From the NCBI RefSeq assembly GCF_027257155.1, contig NZ_JAPWDU010000002.1, forward strand, positions 496,001-560,000: DNA of 64,000 nt, in the 5' to 3' direction. Shown piece after piece: positions 18,297 through 23,937 of this stretch; the stretch's first letter is position 1, and each line of letters opens with the position of its first letter. The position numbers and the translations under genes are program-made. The notes below the pieces were generated by a model, which was not told where the DNA came from, made no database searches, and saw nothing but the letters and a program-made list of their open reading frames with translations. This DNA is from Cerasicoccus sp. TK19100 (GTDB taxonomy: Bacteria; Verrucomicrobiota; Verrucomicrobiia; Opitutales; Cerasicoccaceae).

Positions 18297-18953
18297 TTAC
18301 ATGCCAGAGTAGGCCATGACTTCGAGCAGGGCCTGCTGAATCTTAGCCACGGCGGCACTGAGGGCCTGGCCGACGAAGTCCATTTTGGCGATGGTTTGGA
18401 TGCGCTCCTTGTGGTCGATACGCTCTTGCTCGGTGAAGACGACGTTGCTCAGGTCGCAGGCGTCCATGAGGCAAATAATCACGACATCGCGCGGGTCCGG
18501 AATAGCATCGTGGTCGAGCACCACATCGCGGATGCGGGACTTGACCTCCTGCTCTTCGCGATCGTCGATCACCGGGTAGCGGCGCTCCTTGAGCACAAAC
18601 AGAAAGCGGTGTTCCTCCTGTTTGAGGATGCCGCCCTGCTTGAGCTCGTCAAACAGGCGGGTCTTCCATTCGTCGATGTTGGCATTAACGGCGTTGAGCG
18701 CGCGCTGGATGGAGAGGTCGCTCTCGGCGGGGATCTTTGCCAGCACATCGTCCAGCAGCGCATCGCCGGTCGGCTGGCGGGAGATGACCTGCATGGTCTT
18801 GTCGTCGGAATCCAACACCCCCTTGAAGGCCAGCTCCATAATGAGCGCGCCCGAAATCGCCAGGCCCAGTGAGCCCTCCGGCAACGGGTGGACTTTGCCC
18901 GACGCATCGTCGAGCGCGAGCAAGAGGATTTCTTCCGCAAATCGTAGAGACAT
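18297..18953 (-). CDS. GPP34 (GOLPH3-like) family protein
   Basis: A 218-aa, largely helical soluble protein. The N-terminal RFAEEILLLALDDASGKV, then LGLAISGALIMELAFKGVL and DSDDKT, match the GPP34/GOLPH3 fold, which in eukaryotes binds phosphatidylinositol-4-phosphate at the Golgi. Bacterial members, best known from Actinobacteria, have no settled function. The C-terminal half (DVVIICLMDACDLSNVVFTEQERIDHKERIQTIAKMD) is well conserved in style. The ATG at 18953 follows a GTG at 18959. It is divergent from the polyamine cluster across 88 bp. Family call fairly firm, role unknown. Confidence 0.8.
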   Translation of the reverse strand: MSLRFAEEILLLALDDASGKVHPLPEGSLGLAISGALIMELAFKGVLDSDDKTMQVISRQPTGDALLDDVLAKIPAESDLSIQRALNAVNANIDEWKTRLFDELKQGGILKQEEHRFLFVLKERRYPVIDDREEQEVKSRIRDVVLDHDAIPDPRDVVIICLMDACDLSNVVFTEQERIDHKERIQTIAKMDFVGQALSAAVAKIQQALLEVMAYSGM

Positions 18954-19041
18954 AAGCACAGCATGAGCGACTTTTCGGGCGGGCTAAAGCGAAAAGTTTT
19001 AGGTGTTGAGCTATCCCTCAAAATTCAACTCACTGTGCGGT

Positions 19042-20238
19042 ATGGCAAAAGTCATCATCGTAGGAGCGGGAGGCGTCGGTAACGTCGTTGCCCATAAGTG
19101 TGCCCAAGCCCCGGAAGTATTTTCCGAGATCGTGCTCGCTTCGCGCACGGTGTCCAAGTGCGAGGCGATCGCGGCGGACATCAAGGCCAAGCAGGGTCGC
19201 GAGATTCGCGTAGCCGCGATCGACGCTGATGACGTCGCCGCGATGACGGAGTTCCTCAAGGCCGAGAAGCCCGACCTGCTGCTCAACGTTGCCCTGCCCT
19301 ACCAGGACCTGCCGTTGATGGATGCCTGCCTTGCCGCCGGTGTGGACTACCTGGACACCGCCAACTACGAGCCGCCGGAAGAAGCCAAGTTTGAATACAA
19401 GTGGCAGTGGGCCTACCAGGACCGCTTTAAGGACGCCGGCCGCATGGCGCTGCTCGGCAGCGGCTTCGACCCCGGCGTGACCAATGTTTTTTGCGCCTAC
19501 GCCCAGAAGCACTATTTTGACGAGATCGAGACCATCGACATCCTCGACGCCAATGCTGGCGACCACGGCCACCACTTCGCCACCAATTTTAACCCGGAGA
19601 TCAACATCCGCGAGATCACGCAGGACGGTAAATACTGGGAAGAAGGCGAATGGAAGGAAATCCCGGCCATGAGTGTCATGCAGGTGTATGATTTCCCCGT
19701 TGTCGGCCCCAAGGACGCCTACCTGCTCTACCACGAAGAGCTGGAGTCACTGTGCCAGAACATCAAGGGCCTCAAGCGCATCCGCTTCTGGATGACTTTC
19801 GGGCAAAAATACATCACGCACCTCAACGTGCTGCAAAACGTCGGCATGACGTCGATCGAGCCCATTAACTTCAAGGGCCAGGAGATCGCCCCGATTGAGT
19901 TCCTCAAGGCCGTGCTGCCCGACCCGGCGTCCCTTGGCCCCCGCACCAAGGGCAAGACCTGCATCGGCTGCGACATCGTCGGCTACAAGGACGGCCAGAA
20001 GAAGCGCATTTTCATCTACAACGTCTGCGACCACGAGGAGTGCTACGCAGAGGTTTCCAGCCAAGCCATCAGCTACACAACTGGTGTGCCCGCCATGATA
20101 GGCGGCATGATGATGGTCACCGGTAAATGGCGTCAGGACGGCGTCTGGAACATGGAACAGCTCGACCCCGATCCCTTCATGGAACAGCTTAACCTGCGCG
20201 GCCTCCCTTGGCAGGTGCAGGAGCTACCCGTCGAGTGA
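19042..20238 (+). CDS. Carboxynorspermidine dehydrogenase (saccharopine dehydrogenase family)
   Basis: A ~398-aa NAD(P)-dependent enzyme that joins aspartate semialdehyde to a diamine, giving carboxynorspermidine or carboxyspermidine. The nucleotide-binding VIIVGAGGVGNVVAHK stretch starts four residues into the protein from the ATG at 19042; upstream GTG 19003 gives an unlikely extension. Family features GVDYLDTANYEP, LGSGFDPGVTNVF and DANAGDHGHHF are present. The matching decarboxylase gene is 1.8 kb downstream on the same strand with two genes between, all closely spaced. This supports the alternative spermidine/norspermidine route rather than lysine metabolism. Confidence 0.92.
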   Translation: MAKVIIVGAGGVGNVVAHKCAQAPEVFSEIVLASRTVSKCEAIAADIKAKQGREIRVAAIDADDVAAMTEFLKAEKPDLLLNVALPYQDLPLMDACLAAGVDYLDTANYEPPEEAKFEYKWQWAYQDRFKDAGRMALLGSGFDPGVTNVFCAYAQKHYFDEIETIDILDANAGDHGHHFATNFNPEINIREITQDGKYWEEGEWKEIPAMSVMQVYDFPVVGPKDAYLLYHEELESLCQNIKGLKRIRFWMTFGQKYITHLNVLQNVGMTSIEPINFKGQEIAPIEFLKAVLPDPASLGPRTKGKTCIGCDIVGYKDGQKKRIFIYNVCDHEECYAEVSSQAISYTTGVPAMIGGMMMVTGKWRQDGVWNMEQLDPDPFMEQLNLRGLPWQVQELPVE

Positions 20239-20241
20239 TAA

Positions 20242-20940
20242 ATGCCTTACGTGGACCCATCTCCCTCAGGTAAAAAGCGCAAGCGCCGCAAGAGCGCCAA
20301 CAGCAGCGGAAGTAGCCGAAACAGCAAAAGCGGGAGTAGCCCAAAGCGCTCCCGCAAAGCGAAGTCTGCGACCTTTAAGGACAAACCGGTGCCCACGTTC
20401 AGCATTGCCAGCTCGCTCTTTAACCGGGTTGAGCCCGGGGCCAAGGCGCGTAAGCTGCGTGCACGGGAGAAAGTCGCGTTGTATGTCCTGGGCTTTGTGT
20501 GCCTGGTCACCATCACATTAGTCACGTTTGCGTGGAATTCCCGCAGCCAGCCACTGCTCGACTGGCAAACCGTGGAAGCCTTGCCCACGCTGGAGGACCA
20601 CGTGCTCGGCGTCAGCAGCGGAGCCGAAAAAGACAGCGCGGCCTACATCGAGCCCTTTATCTGCCGCGGCGACACCCGCTTTGCCCTGGATAACCTGGAG
20701 GCGCTTCTCCGCGCCGATGACAACTTCCGCTCGGTTCGCCGGACCCGCAACCAACTCCAGGCCGTGTATGTTTCCACCGCACTCGGCTTCAACAACGACC
20801 TGGTTTTTCAGGCCCGTAGCAAACCGGAGCGACTGGAGGTTTATGCCTCGGCCCGTATCAGCATTGGCGACTTCGGCACCAATCGCGTGGCACTGGAAGA
20901 TCTGCGTGAGCGCTTGCGTGAACTGCATGTGTTGCGGTAG
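20242..20940 (+). CDS. Membrane-anchored DUF1499 protein with a basic N-terminal tail
   Basis: A 232-aa protein in three parts. Residues 1-50 are a highly basic, Ser/Lys/Arg-rich disordered tail (KKRKRRKSANSSGSSR). Residues ~80-100 form one membrane segment (VALYVLGFVCLVTITLVTFAW). Residues ~130-232 resemble DUF1499: DNLEALLRADDNFRSVRRTRNQLQAVY, FNNDLVFQARSKPERLEVYASARIS, FGTNRVALEDLRERL. The DUF1499 fold has no known activity. The basic tail should face the cytoplasm, where it could bind nucleic acid or acidic lipid. It starts 3 bp after the dehydrogenase stop, so it belongs to the polyamine transcript. Confidence 0.75.
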   Translation: MPYVDPSPSGKKRKRRKSANSSGSSRNSKSGSSPKRSRKAKSATFKDKPVPTFSIASSLFNRVEPGAKARKLRAREKVALYVLGFVCLVTITLVTFAWNSRSQPLLDWQTVEALPTLEDHVLGVSSGAEKDSAAYIEPFICRGDTRFALDNLEALLRADDNFRSVRRTRNQLQAVYVSTALGFNNDLVFQARSKPERLEVYASARISIGDFGTNRVALEDLRERLRELHVLR

Positions 20941-20964
20941 TTTTCCCGCAACACCATCACTGCC

Positions 20965-22044
20965 ATGATCAACCAATACCACATGAAGGGGGGCGGCTAC
21001 TACAACGCGCACTCCACCCCACAACACGATGCCATGTATGGCTGCCTGCCGTGGCTGCTCGAAGCGGTCGCATCGATGAAGCTCCCCGCCGATAAGCAAC
21101 TGCGCACGCTGGATGTCGGGTGTTCGCAGGGCGCGAACTCCGTGGACATGCTCAAGCAACTCGTGGCCAAGCTACGCGAGGCCGGTGCCACTTCCATCCA
21201 GCCAAGCCTGGCTGACCTGCCCAGTAACGACTTTAACAGCGTTTTCGAGAACCTGTTTCCCGGCGGAGATAACGTCTTTGGTGGCACGGACGTGCTGCCG
21301 GCTGCGATCGGCGGCTCAGCCTATGAGCGCCTCGCCCCCACGCAATCGCTGCATGTCGTAACCACGTTCAACATGCTGGGCTGGCGCAAACAACCGCCAG
21401 TGACGCGGCTGCGCAACACCATTGCCGCATTTCATCCCACGCCATACGCAGAGCCACATGGTCCGCAGGCCGACCCGGCCGCGATTGACGCCGCGGTGGC
21501 AGAAGCCAAGCCGGACTTGGTCGACTTCTTCCGTGCCCGCGCCGAGGAACTAGTCCCCGGAGGCAAAATGCTCGTGCAAATATTCGGCAGCAGCGACGAT
21601 GGTGGCAACACCGCACATGGCTGGCTGGACGCCTTGAACGACGTTTTGTTTTCGCTCATTGACGAGGGTAAATTGACCCAGCAGGCGATGGATGACTTTA
21701 CCTTCCCCGTGGTTTGGCGTACCTTGGCAGAGCTGAAAGAGCCGCTGGAAAACGAACCCGACTTACGCGCCGCCTTCACCATCGAAAAGGCCGACAGCTG
21801 GGAAGTCCCGGTCGATTTTAACGTGCGTTACGAAGAAAGCGGCAACCTGCAAAACTGGGCGCACGAATACACCGAGGTGTTCCGCGCCGTCACCGAGACG
21901 ACCTTAGCAGGCATCTTCCCCGAGGAGACGTGCGAAGCCTTGATCGATGAAGTTTACAAACGCATTGAAACGCGGTTTGCCGAAGATCCCGTTCGCTACC
22001 AGTTCCACTTTTATTCCATCGCCGTCTTGCTAACGCGCAACTGA
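20965..22044 (+). CDS. SABATH-type carboxyl methyltransferase
   Basis: A 359-aa SAM-dependent methyltransferase resembling the plant SABATH family (salicylate, jasmonate, caffeine methyltransferases). The N-terminus MKGGGYYNAHSTPQH is the SABATH substrate/SAM entry motif. LRTLDVGCSQGANS binds SAM, SLADLPSNDFNSVFENL is the typical PSNDFN element, and TTFNMLGWRK occupies the place of the SSYSLHWLS segment. The C-terminal EYTEVFRAVTE and FHFYSIAVLLTRN also fit. These enzymes O-methylate carboxyl groups. It lies between carboxynorspermidine dehydrogenase and decarboxylase, 3 bp before the latter, so a carboxylated polyamine intermediate is a possible but unproven substrate. Confidence 0.8.
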   Translation: MINQYHMKGGGYYNAHSTPQHDAMYGCLPWLLEAVASMKLPADKQLRTLDVGCSQGANSVDMLKQLVAKLREAGATSIQPSLADLPSNDFNSVFENLFPGGDNVFGGTDVLPAAIGGSAYERLAPTQSLHVVTTFNMLGWRKQPPVTRLRNTIAAFHPTPYAEPHGPQADPAAIDAAVAEAKPDLVDFFRARAEELVPGGKMLVQIFGSSDDGGNTAHGWLDALNDVLFSLIDEGKLTQQAMDDFTFPVVWRTLAELKEPLENEPDLRAAFTIEKADSWEVPVDFNVRYEESGNLQNWAHEYTEVFRAVTETTLAGIFPEETCEALIDEVYKRIETRFAEDPVRYQFHFYSIAVLLTRN

Positions 22045-22047
22045 AAC

Positions 22048-23265
22048 ATGGCCCAAGACCCGACACCACCTTTGACACCCGAGCGCCTGCAAGCGCTACG
22101 CGACATCCCCGCCCAAGACACACCCTCACCGTGCTACGTGGTCAACCTCGACCGACTGGAGGACAACTGCCGCATCCTGGCCAGCGTCCGCGAACGCTCC
22201 AGCGCGAAGGTCATACTTGCGCAAAAGGGATTCTCCATGCACGCCACCTACCCGCTACTGGCGCGCTACCTCGACGGCTCCACTGCAAGCGGTCTGCACG
22301 AGGCGCTGCTGGCCGAGGAGTATTTTGGCAAGGAAGTCCATGTTTACTCAGCGGCGTTTAAAGAGACGGACATCGCTTCGCTAGGCCGGTTCGCGCACAC
22401 GCTGGTGTTCAATTCCGTGCGCCAATGGCAGCGCCACCAACCAGCGCTGGATACTTTGCAACGCAAAGTAGAAGTCGGTCTGCGCGTTAACCCCGAGCAT
22501 TCCGAGGTCGAGACCGATCTCTACAACCCGGCCGCCCCCTGCTCCCGCCTGGGCATCACACGCGCCGAGCTGGACCGCCAAATGGCCGAAGCTGGCCTCA
22601 CCGATTTAAGCGCGCTCGACGGCCTGCATTTCCATGCGCTCTGCGAACAGGACTCCGATGCGTTGGAAGGTGTTGCGCGCGCGTTCGAGGAGAAGTTTGG
22701 CGACCTGATTGCGAGTGGTAATTTCAAGTGGCTGAACTTCGGCGGCGGCCACCACATTACCCGCCCGGGCTACGACCTCGACCGCCTGTGCCGCGTCGTC
22801 TCGGAGTTTCGCGAAAAGTATGGCGTCGAGGTTTACCTGGAGCCCGGCGAAGCCGTGGCGCTGCATACCGGCGTGCTCGTGGCCACCGTGCTCGATGTGC
22901 TGGAAGCTGGCGGCGTCACGAACGCAATTCTGGATGTCTCCGCCACCTGCCACATGCCCGACGTGCTAGAAATGCCTTACCGGCCCAACATCCTAGACGC
23001 CGGTCAACCGGGCCAACGCGCCCACAACTACCGCCTCGGCGGCCCCAGCTGCCTGGCAGGCGATGTGATCGGCGATTACAGTTTCGACGCCCCGCTCGAG
23101 CCCGGCAGGCGCATCGTCTTCCTCGACATGGCGCACTACACGATGGTCAAGACTTCGACCTTTAACGGCGTGCCCCTACCCGCCATCGCGACCTTTAGTC
23201 AGGCCGATGGGCTGCAAGTCGTGCGCAAGTTTGGGTATCGGGACTTCGCGGAGAGGCTTAGTTAA
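22048..23265 (+). CDS. nspC: Carboxynorspermidine decarboxylase
   Basis: A 405-aa PLP-dependent fold-III (alanine-racemase-like) decarboxylase that converts carboxynorspermidine or carboxyspermidine to the triamine. The N-terminal TPSPCYVVNLDRLEDN and the PLP lysine K60 in KVILAQKGFSM are typical. ASGLHEALLAEEYFGKEVHVYS, LRVNPEHSEVETDLYNP, FGGGHHITRPGYD and PSCLAGDVIGDY follow as in the NspC family. It starts 3 bp after the methyltransferase stop. Together with the dehydrogenase it gives the complete two-step pathway. It contains the second perfect copy of the 19-bp palindrome. Confidence 0.95.
   Translation: MAQDPTPPLTPERLQALRDIPAQDTPSPCYVVNLDRLEDNCRILASVRERSSAKVILAQKGFSMHATYPLLARYLDGSTASGLHEALLAEEYFGKEVHVYSAAFKETDIASLGRFAHTLVFNSVRQWQRHQPALDTLQRKVEVGLRVNPEHSEVETDLYNPAAPCSRLGITRAELDRQMAEAGLTDLSALDGLHFHALCEQDSDALEGVARAFEEKFGDLIASGNFKWLNFGGGHHITRPGYDLDRLCRVVSEFREKYGVEVYLEPGEAVALHTGVLVATVLDVLEAGGVTNAILDVSATCHMPDVLEMPYRPNILDAGQPGQRAHNYRLGGPSCLAGDVIGDYSFDAPLEPGRRIVFLDMAHYTMVKTSTFNGVPLPAIATFSQADGLQVVRKFGYRDFAERLS
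22452..22470. repeat. 19-bp perfect palindrome inside nspC (copy 2)
   Basis: TACTTTGC-AAC-GCAAAGTA, with 8-bp perfect arms, encoding T-L-Q-R-K-V. It differs from the copy at 8688-8706 at one loop base. Confidence 0.5.
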
Positions 23266-23274
23266 AAGCGGCCA

Positions 23275-23937
23275 TTATTGCTTAGTCCAAAAAACGCAGT
23301 GTCCGGAGTCTTTGGCATGTCGCCAAACCCGCATAACTTGCTCCCAATCCTCGGTCACACGTGTGAAGGAATTGGCGCGATAGTATTCGTATAAGCTATC
23401 AACATCACGGTAAATTGTCGCCAAGTTTTCCGTCTGAATTTTGATCGCACTGTGATGTGGGTCCGCGGCTTGCACCCTTTCGATGACTGAGCGGGCTTGA
23501 TCCTGATGCCATTTCAATCGTTTTTCCGTAGCCTCGCGCTGAGCACGCACACGGGCATAGACCCCCACTACATCGCTAATATCAATTTGCTCAATCAACG
23601 CAAACTCCCGCACCACGCTTTCATGAAAGTAGACCGCAACGTAAACTTCCGGCATGTCTGAATAAAATTCTTTTTCATTAAAGAAGTGGCGGTTCACATG
23701 TGAGATAAATTCGATATAGGCCAACCGACTGGATGACGTTTCAACCTCAAAATTGATAATTTCAGCCGCTTCGGAAAAACGCAGCATCTGATTTTTGCTG
23801 AAGCTTGAATTTACCACGAGTGGGCGCAACTCAAACAAGTAAGCAACGCTACCTTCATCGAAATTGTCACCAAACTCTTTCCACCCTTGTTCCAACACCT
23901 GACGAGGTGCAGAAAAATGAATATCCTCAACCCCCAT
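23275..23937 (-). CDS. Unknown protein linked to an ABC transporter
   Basis: A 220-aa soluble protein with no recognised family. Residues ~1-110 look alpha/beta (GSVAYLFELRPLVVN, EIINFEVETSSSRLAYIEFISHVNRHFF, MPEVYVAVYFHESV). Residues ~120-170 are a long charged helix (RVRAQREATEKRLKWHQDQARSVIERVQ), possibly a coiled coil. It starts 1 bp after the stop of the upstream ABC transporter gene, so the two are translationally coupled. Its base composition is clearly more AT-rich than that of the transporter. An accessory or regulatory role for the transporter is the simplest reading, but nothing in the sequence proves it. Confidence 0.65.
   Translation of the reverse strand: MGVEDIHFSAPRQVLEQGWKEFGDNFDEGSVAYLFELRPLVVNSSFSKNQMLRFSEAAEIINFEVETSSSRLAYIEFISHVNRHFFNEKEFYSDMPEVYVAVYFHESVVREFALIEQIDISDVVGVYARVRAQREATEKRLKWHQDQARSVIERVQAADPHHSAIKIQTENLATIYRDVDSLYEYYRANSFTRVTEDWEQVMRVWRHAKDSGHCVFWTKQ

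Follow-up and report, generated by a model that had tools for sequence, protein, structure and literature searches.

Within a 64,000-nucleotide stretch of the genome of Cerasicoccus sp. TK19100 (contig NZ_JAPWDU010000002.1, positions 496,001 to 560,000; hereafter the window), a gene for a predicted SABATH-family, S-adenosylmethionine (SAM)-dependent carboxyl methyltransferase (20965–22044, + strand; 359 aa; PF03492) stands between the two core genes of a polyamine operon. These encode carboxyspermidine/carboxynorspermidine dehydrogenase (CASDH/CANSDH) and carboxyspermidine/carboxynorspermidine decarboxylase (CASDC/CANSDC). Comparative sequence analysis established the family of the protein, its carboxylate clamp, its operon slot, its restriction to one lineage among the genomes searched and, in one species pair, its evolutionary constraint. 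Taken as a whole, the data incline us, by a little, to the reading that the protein is an accessory SABATH carboxyl O-methyltransferase inserted in a spermidine operon.

In the course of events that we propose, the SABATH gene would have been inserted once, between the genes for a DUF1499 protein and CASDC, in a common ancestor of three species of the Cerasicoccus group, and would be transcribed together with the spermidine operon. The enzyme would bind SAM and clamp a carboxylate with Lys8, Gln20 and Trp140, and the methyl group would pass by proximity to yield a methyl ester. The SABATH mechanism has been described as 'proximity and desolvation' (PMC9822479). The activity, on a small organic acid, would be accessory, and spermidine synthesis probably does not depend on it.

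The SABATH protein and its carboxylate clamp

The initial annotation had named the protein a SABATH-type methyltransferase, which is borne out by its PF03492 score of 136.9 bits (cut-off 29.8; residues 42–357, profile positions 12–334 of 335), by a full-length match to a plant SABATH enzyme and by the retention of a Lys/Gln/Trp clamp. Among 177,635 distinct sequences of the Protein Data Bank (PDB), 11 matched at E 0.001 or better, all except IpCS3 carrying methyltransferase names. The best of them was the salicylate carboxyl methyltransferase CbSAMT (1m6e), with E 6.8e-21 for the single protein, and 6e-25 and 91.3 bits with a three-row profile of the orthologues. With CbSAMT and a second plant enzyme, AtIAMT (3b5i), the window protein shares PF03492, a SAM motif and a DLP-NDFN motif, as well as the clamp, which was checked in full against 1m6e; it differs from them in being a distant relative (91 bits with the profile) encoded in a bacterial operon. 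A solved SABATH-like fatty acid O-methyltransferase (5f2k, 5f2o), which we take to be mycobacterial, matches over residues 13–342, but more weakly than the plant enzyme (67 versus 91 bits). The literature that we found on SABATH enzymes was nearly all on plants, in agreement with the earlier remark that they are mostly known from there.

In CbSAMT, K10, Q25 and W151 fix the substrate carboxylate (PMC13376665). These residues align with K8, Q20 and W140 of the window protein, which are invariant in all three orthologues. Residues were compared across five of the 11 PDB alignments (1m6e, 3b5i, 8uzd, 6lyi and 6lyh), where the Q20 position holds Gln in both carboxyl methyltransferases (1m6e, 3b5i) and Ser or Thr in the other three, namely 8uzd (IpCS3), presumably a caffeine synthase, and 6lyi and 6lyh, which are named N-methyltransferases in the PDB. 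Because the window protein has Gln here, as the carboxyl methyltransferases do, ester formation is favoured. Five of the six SAM-site residues of IAMT (K21, S33, D68, D108, L109 and F140; PMC13376665) are matched, by K8, S17, D50, D84 and L85, with Ala119 at the Phe position. Carboxyl methylation, the chemistry originally put forward, is supported by sequence, and the enzyme most likely esterifies a small carboxylic acid.

Operon layout, lineage and selection

As first described, the gene belongs to a tight run of four + strand open reading frames (ORFs), arranged head to tail and separated by just 3, 24 and 3 bp: the saccharopine-dehydrogenase-like CASDH/CANSDH (19042–20238; 398 aa; PF16653, PF03435), the DUF1499 protein (20242–20940; 232 aa; PF07386), the SABATH protein, and CASDC/CANSDC of the NspC family (22048–23265; 405 aa; TIGR01047). 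A scan for promoters and terminators gave one site resembling a promoter and three resembling terminators; the − strand holds all of them, and shuffled sequences yield more, which is weak evidence that the + strand run is unsplit. Since the + strand showed nothing like a terminator, a single transcript, which would include the SABATH gene, is plausible. GC content at third codon positions (GC3) is 0.733 in the SABATH gene and 0.733–0.817 in its operon neighbours.

The window's genus as drawn, here called the Cerasicoccus group, comprises four genomes, two of which (G558 and G559) we take to be C. frondis and C. maritimus. Both carry SABATH orthologues, with 68% and 67% identity, in the same slot. 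The gene is present in three of the four genomes of the group, each time between CASDH and CASDC, and in none of the six other genomes of the family; CASDC was found in all ten family genomes, seven of which have no SABATH gene. Draws from the class (286 genomes; single protein, E 1e-8) and the phylum (387 genomes; PF03492), both of which left out G558 and G559, each returned only the window's own genome (5.07 Mb in 13 contigs, 97% complete), and 14 control genomes had no PF03492 match. In the order, the three-row profile matched four of 177 genomes drawn, namely the window's own, G558, G559 and G591, the last over 42 residues with 18 bits, which we take to be chance. A contig scan across bacteria, which finds close relatives, brought up no species other than C. 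frondis and C. maritimus. Conservation of the neighbourhood, raised in the initial annotation for the Verrucomicrobiota at large, therefore holds within the genus (three of four) and fails across the phylum (one of 387 genomes drawn).

More distant relatives were detected on plasmids, where tblastn found three alphaproteobacterial proteins, from Sinorhizobium, Novosphingobium and Rhizobium, with 24–27% identity in that search. These resemble the window protein in PF03492, which is matched by six of six members of alignment A2, but they are 22–28% identical to it and have no polyamine gene recognised among their annotated or tested neighbours. Their clamps vary: Sinorhizobium has Lys, Gln and Trp; Novosphingobium has Gln and Trp, with Ala for Lys; and Rhizobium has neither Gln nor Trp. 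On the Rhizobium plasmid (L024 3253–8357), the PF03492 gene lies between the gene of a protein with weak, below-cut-off matches to B12-binding and radical-SAM families and that of an FAD-dependent oxidoreductase, perhaps forming a small biosynthetic cluster. Phages yielded no match, none of 17 pattern stretches in viral contigs was a relative, and PHROGs held no entry for SABATH or DUF1499.

Four genomes of another genus of the family have CASDH and CASDC side by side, with 71–190 bp between the matched segments, and in G560 and G561 no CASDH was found within 15–16 kb around CASDC. The remaining genome of the Cerasicoccus group, G271, has CASDH, DUF1499 and, after 107 bp, CASDC, without SABATH; no SABATH remnant was detected in the 107-bp gap, where 46, 45 and 152 of 200 shuffles reach the orthologue scores. 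By protein identity, a comparison and not a tree, G271 falls outside the other three for pyrC, GPP34 and CASDH, and weakly so for CASDC (86–88% versus 88–89%). The simplest order of events would be a CASDH–CASDC pair that received DUF1499 and then SABATH, with SABATH probably being an accessory insertion that has been constrained since.

The SABATH gene is open in all three species and lies 2–4 bp from CASDC in each of them. Protein identity among the three is 65–68% for SABATH, 92–98% for CASDH and 88–89% for CASDC. The ratio of non-synonymous to synonymous substitution rates (dN/dS) for SABATH is 0.14 between the window and C. frondis, and the other two species pairs are saturated at synonymous sites. 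Two orthologues in the same slot, together with this ratio, argue that the ORF is no chance frame. By these values the gene is constrained, though more loosely than those of the core enzymes, as would befit an accessory function. The species may instead have acquired divergent SABATH alleles separately, a history considered because SABATH synonymous sites are saturated (proportion of synonymous differences, pS, 0.68–0.81) while CASDH pS between C. frondis and C. maritimus is just 0.27; however, pyrC (0.59) and CASDC (0.64) are also high in this pair, making CASDH, and less so GPP34 (0.39), the low outlier. At the DNA level, the same two species are 89.5% identical over GPP34–CASDH and 72.6% over DUF1499–SABATH–CASDC (L018 5441–7567, L019 7394–9518), and may have recombined, with the boundary lying where CASDH meets DUF1499.

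The DUF1499 protein, matched by PF07386 with 55.9 bits (cut-off 22.6; domain at 124–225), has a basic, Ser-rich N-terminus. Hydropathy analysis revealed a single stretch of 19 residues, beginning at residue 78, that is strongly hydrophobic, which makes 'membrane protein' a fair label, for a single-pass protein. Its gene occurs in four of four genomes of the group and in none of the six others of the family. The C. maritimus copy (L019 9464–10162) has an in-frame TAG that ends the ORF after 145 codons, unlike SABATH and both polyamine genes of that species, which are open; it looks like a decaying gene or a sequencing error.

Divergent from the operon, a gene for GPP34 (Golgi phosphoprotein 3 homologue; 18297–18959, − strand; PF05719, 148 bits) adjoins it in all four genomes of the group. 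On the far side of the operon lies a 220-aa ORF (23275–23937, − strand) with a GC content of 46.5% and a GC3 of 0.495, compared with 0.65–0.82 in the other 11 genes measured. This ORF has no Pfam match over cut-off, and tblastn against the related loci did not find it, although the C. maritimus contig is too short there to be informative; it was possibly acquired.

The polyamine pathway and its intermediate

The initial annotation assigned the operon to carboxynorspermidine, a label that is probably wrong, given that SpeA and agmatine-deiminase-type genes are present and TIGR00709 has no match over its cut-off. The NspC equivalog TIGR01047 matches CASDC with 479.8 bits (cut-off 409); this model, we infer, does not separate the spermidine from the norspermidine route. 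The dehydrogenase scores 455 bits against the carboxynorspermidine synthase equivalog NF043000, under its cut-off of 800, and reaches 538.9 bits with 8deb, the structure of CASDH from B. fragilis; two chains score higher (4ina, 618.9 bits; 4rl6, 575.6 bits), both named only saccharopine dehydrogenase. It carries an HEE motif at residues 231–233, the counterpart of His228-Glu229-Glu230 in BfCASDH (PMC10413350). The B. fragilis enzyme prefers putrescine over diaminopropane 5.6-fold, and that of C. leptum is without preference (PMC10413350). A better guide to the pathway is the source of diamine for which a genome carries genes: arginine decarboxylase (ADC) leads to agmatine, ornithine decarboxylase (ODC) to putrescine, and diaminobutyrate aminotransferase/decarboxylase to diaminopropane (PMC11999265).

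The window's genome encodes SpeA, an arginine decarboxylase (708 bits, over cut-off). A search of the same genome for diaminobutyrate aminotransferase (TIGR00709) gave nothing over cut-off (best piece 152 versus 401.6 bits), diaminobutyrate decarboxylase not having been searched. A PF04371 gene scores 338 bits, over the Pfam cut-off, but only 223 bits against the AguA equivalog cut-off of 382; adjoining it is the gene of an amidase resembling AguB, whose 327.6 bits fall short of the cut-off, 410. The agmatinase family PF00491 had no match at 1e-5. PF02784 matched SpeA and one gene closest to LysA (270 bits, cut-off 298); no ornithine decarboxylase was seen in this search, which was confined to the one decarboxylase fold and whose limit also missed the window's CASDC.

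Genomes with ADC have been linked with a carboxyaminopropylagmatine route, which ADC alone would suggest by this guide (PMC11999265). We nevertheless prefer carboxyspermidine, because no arginase/agmatinase-family match was found, while the PF04371 and AguB-like pair would turn agmatine into putrescine. The carboxyaminopropylagmatine route, we assume, calls for an agmatinase-family hydrolase in addition to arginine decarboxylase. In place of carboxynorspermidine, the likeliest intermediate of the pathway is carboxyspermidine, or else carboxyaminopropylagmatine. The intermediate carries a free carboxylate in each candidate route, so that part of the original proposal stands. Like the CASDH/CASDC spermidine pathway described elsewhere, the operon has both core enzymes, present and open; it differs in the DUF1499 and SABATH genes between them, and the available parts of the two papers mention no pathway methyltransferase (PMC10413350, PMC11999265). 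Among the literature matches listed, none placed a SABATH enzyme in polyamine synthesis by title or abstract, most subscription journals lying outside the search, and none was found that joined Cerasicoccus and polyamine.

Candidate substrates and significance

We put at slightly short of an even chance the case in which the gene is a passenger that came to lie downstream of an active promoter, with a substrate unrelated to polyamines and an incidental position. It occurs in a single lineage among the genomes drawn; the stretch evidently accepts genes, since DUF1499 there is also lineage-specific and has a stop in C. maritimus; and the three alphaproteobacterial relatives stand beside no recognised polyamine gene. 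Yet the slot has been kept in three species with strongly diverged synonymous sites, a point weakened in turn by GPP34, which lies outside the operon and has been kept nearby too. It is unlikely, in our estimate, that SABATH methyl-esterifies carboxyspermidine, thereby throttling spermidine or giving a new, more cationic end product, as CASDC would presumably be unable to decarboxylate the ester. The location of the gene between those for the enzymes that form and consume this intermediate, in all three species that bear it, is consistent with such a role, as are the free carboxylate of the intermediate, the retained clamp and the pocket changes G139 and N136, invariant in three of three. The pathway intermediate is nonetheless not favoured as the substrate, because relatives keep the pathway without SABATH, G271 and six other family genomes having CASDC alone of the two. 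In addition, the identities given above show a higher rate of evolution for SABATH than for the core enzymes, and the substrates tabulated for the family are aromatic, terpenoid, indole and xanthine compounds, not polycationic amino acids (PMC9822479).

We regard as very improbable an N-methyltransferase acting on a polyamine nitrogen, as SABATH caffeine synthases act on xanthines. The family does include N-methyltransferases, and IpCS3 (8uzd) scores 89.9 bits with the profile, close to the 91.3 bits of 1m6e, but Gln20 agrees with both carboxyl methyltransferases compared and differs from the Ser/Thr of the other three chains. There is a similarly slight chance that an activated ester of carboxyspermidine is formed and cyclises through its gamma amine to the five-membered lactam 3-amino-1-(4-aminobutyl)pyrrolidin-2-one, esters of diaminobutyrate being prone to ring closure.

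Several points weigh against an accessory carboxyl O-methyltransferase gained by insertion. The Q20 comparison leaves out six of the 11 PDB alignments, and the constraint depends on one dN/dS value, two of the three pairs being saturated. Y147, M150 and Y255 of 1m6e, which we take to be pocket positions, and its SAM-site F130 correspond in the alignment to N136, G139, V250 and A119 of the window protein, differences that make plant substrates not transferable. An AlphaFold2 model from the three orthologues (predicted local distance difference test, pLDDT, 41.6; predicted template modelling score, pTM, 0.32) was too poor for pocket inspection. The spacing of 2–4 bp to CASDC would also fit a link to the pathway, and an alternative history is that G271 lost SABATH and the other three never had to gain it. 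The probabilities given here overlap: the accessory carboxyl O-methyltransferase that we favour includes the case of a passenger gene, and it fits methylation of carboxyspermidine except in being probably not a pathway step.

The SABATH gene of Cerasicoccus is a genuine finding of limited breadth: the enzyme is of a familiar kind, and its slot is new. Placed between the genes for forming and for consuming a carboxylated intermediate, it provides a concrete and cheap substrate hypothesis for a bacterial SABATH enzyme. If the intermediate is the substrate, the gene would open a new branch of polyamine metabolism; were the lactam formed, this would be a cyclised-polyamine branch, and entry to it would be decided by which of the two enzymes, methyltransferase or decarboxylase, captures their shared intermediate. 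If it is not, the locus would show clearly how an accessory gene can become established within a conserved operon, a sister species still having nothing in the corresponding slot.

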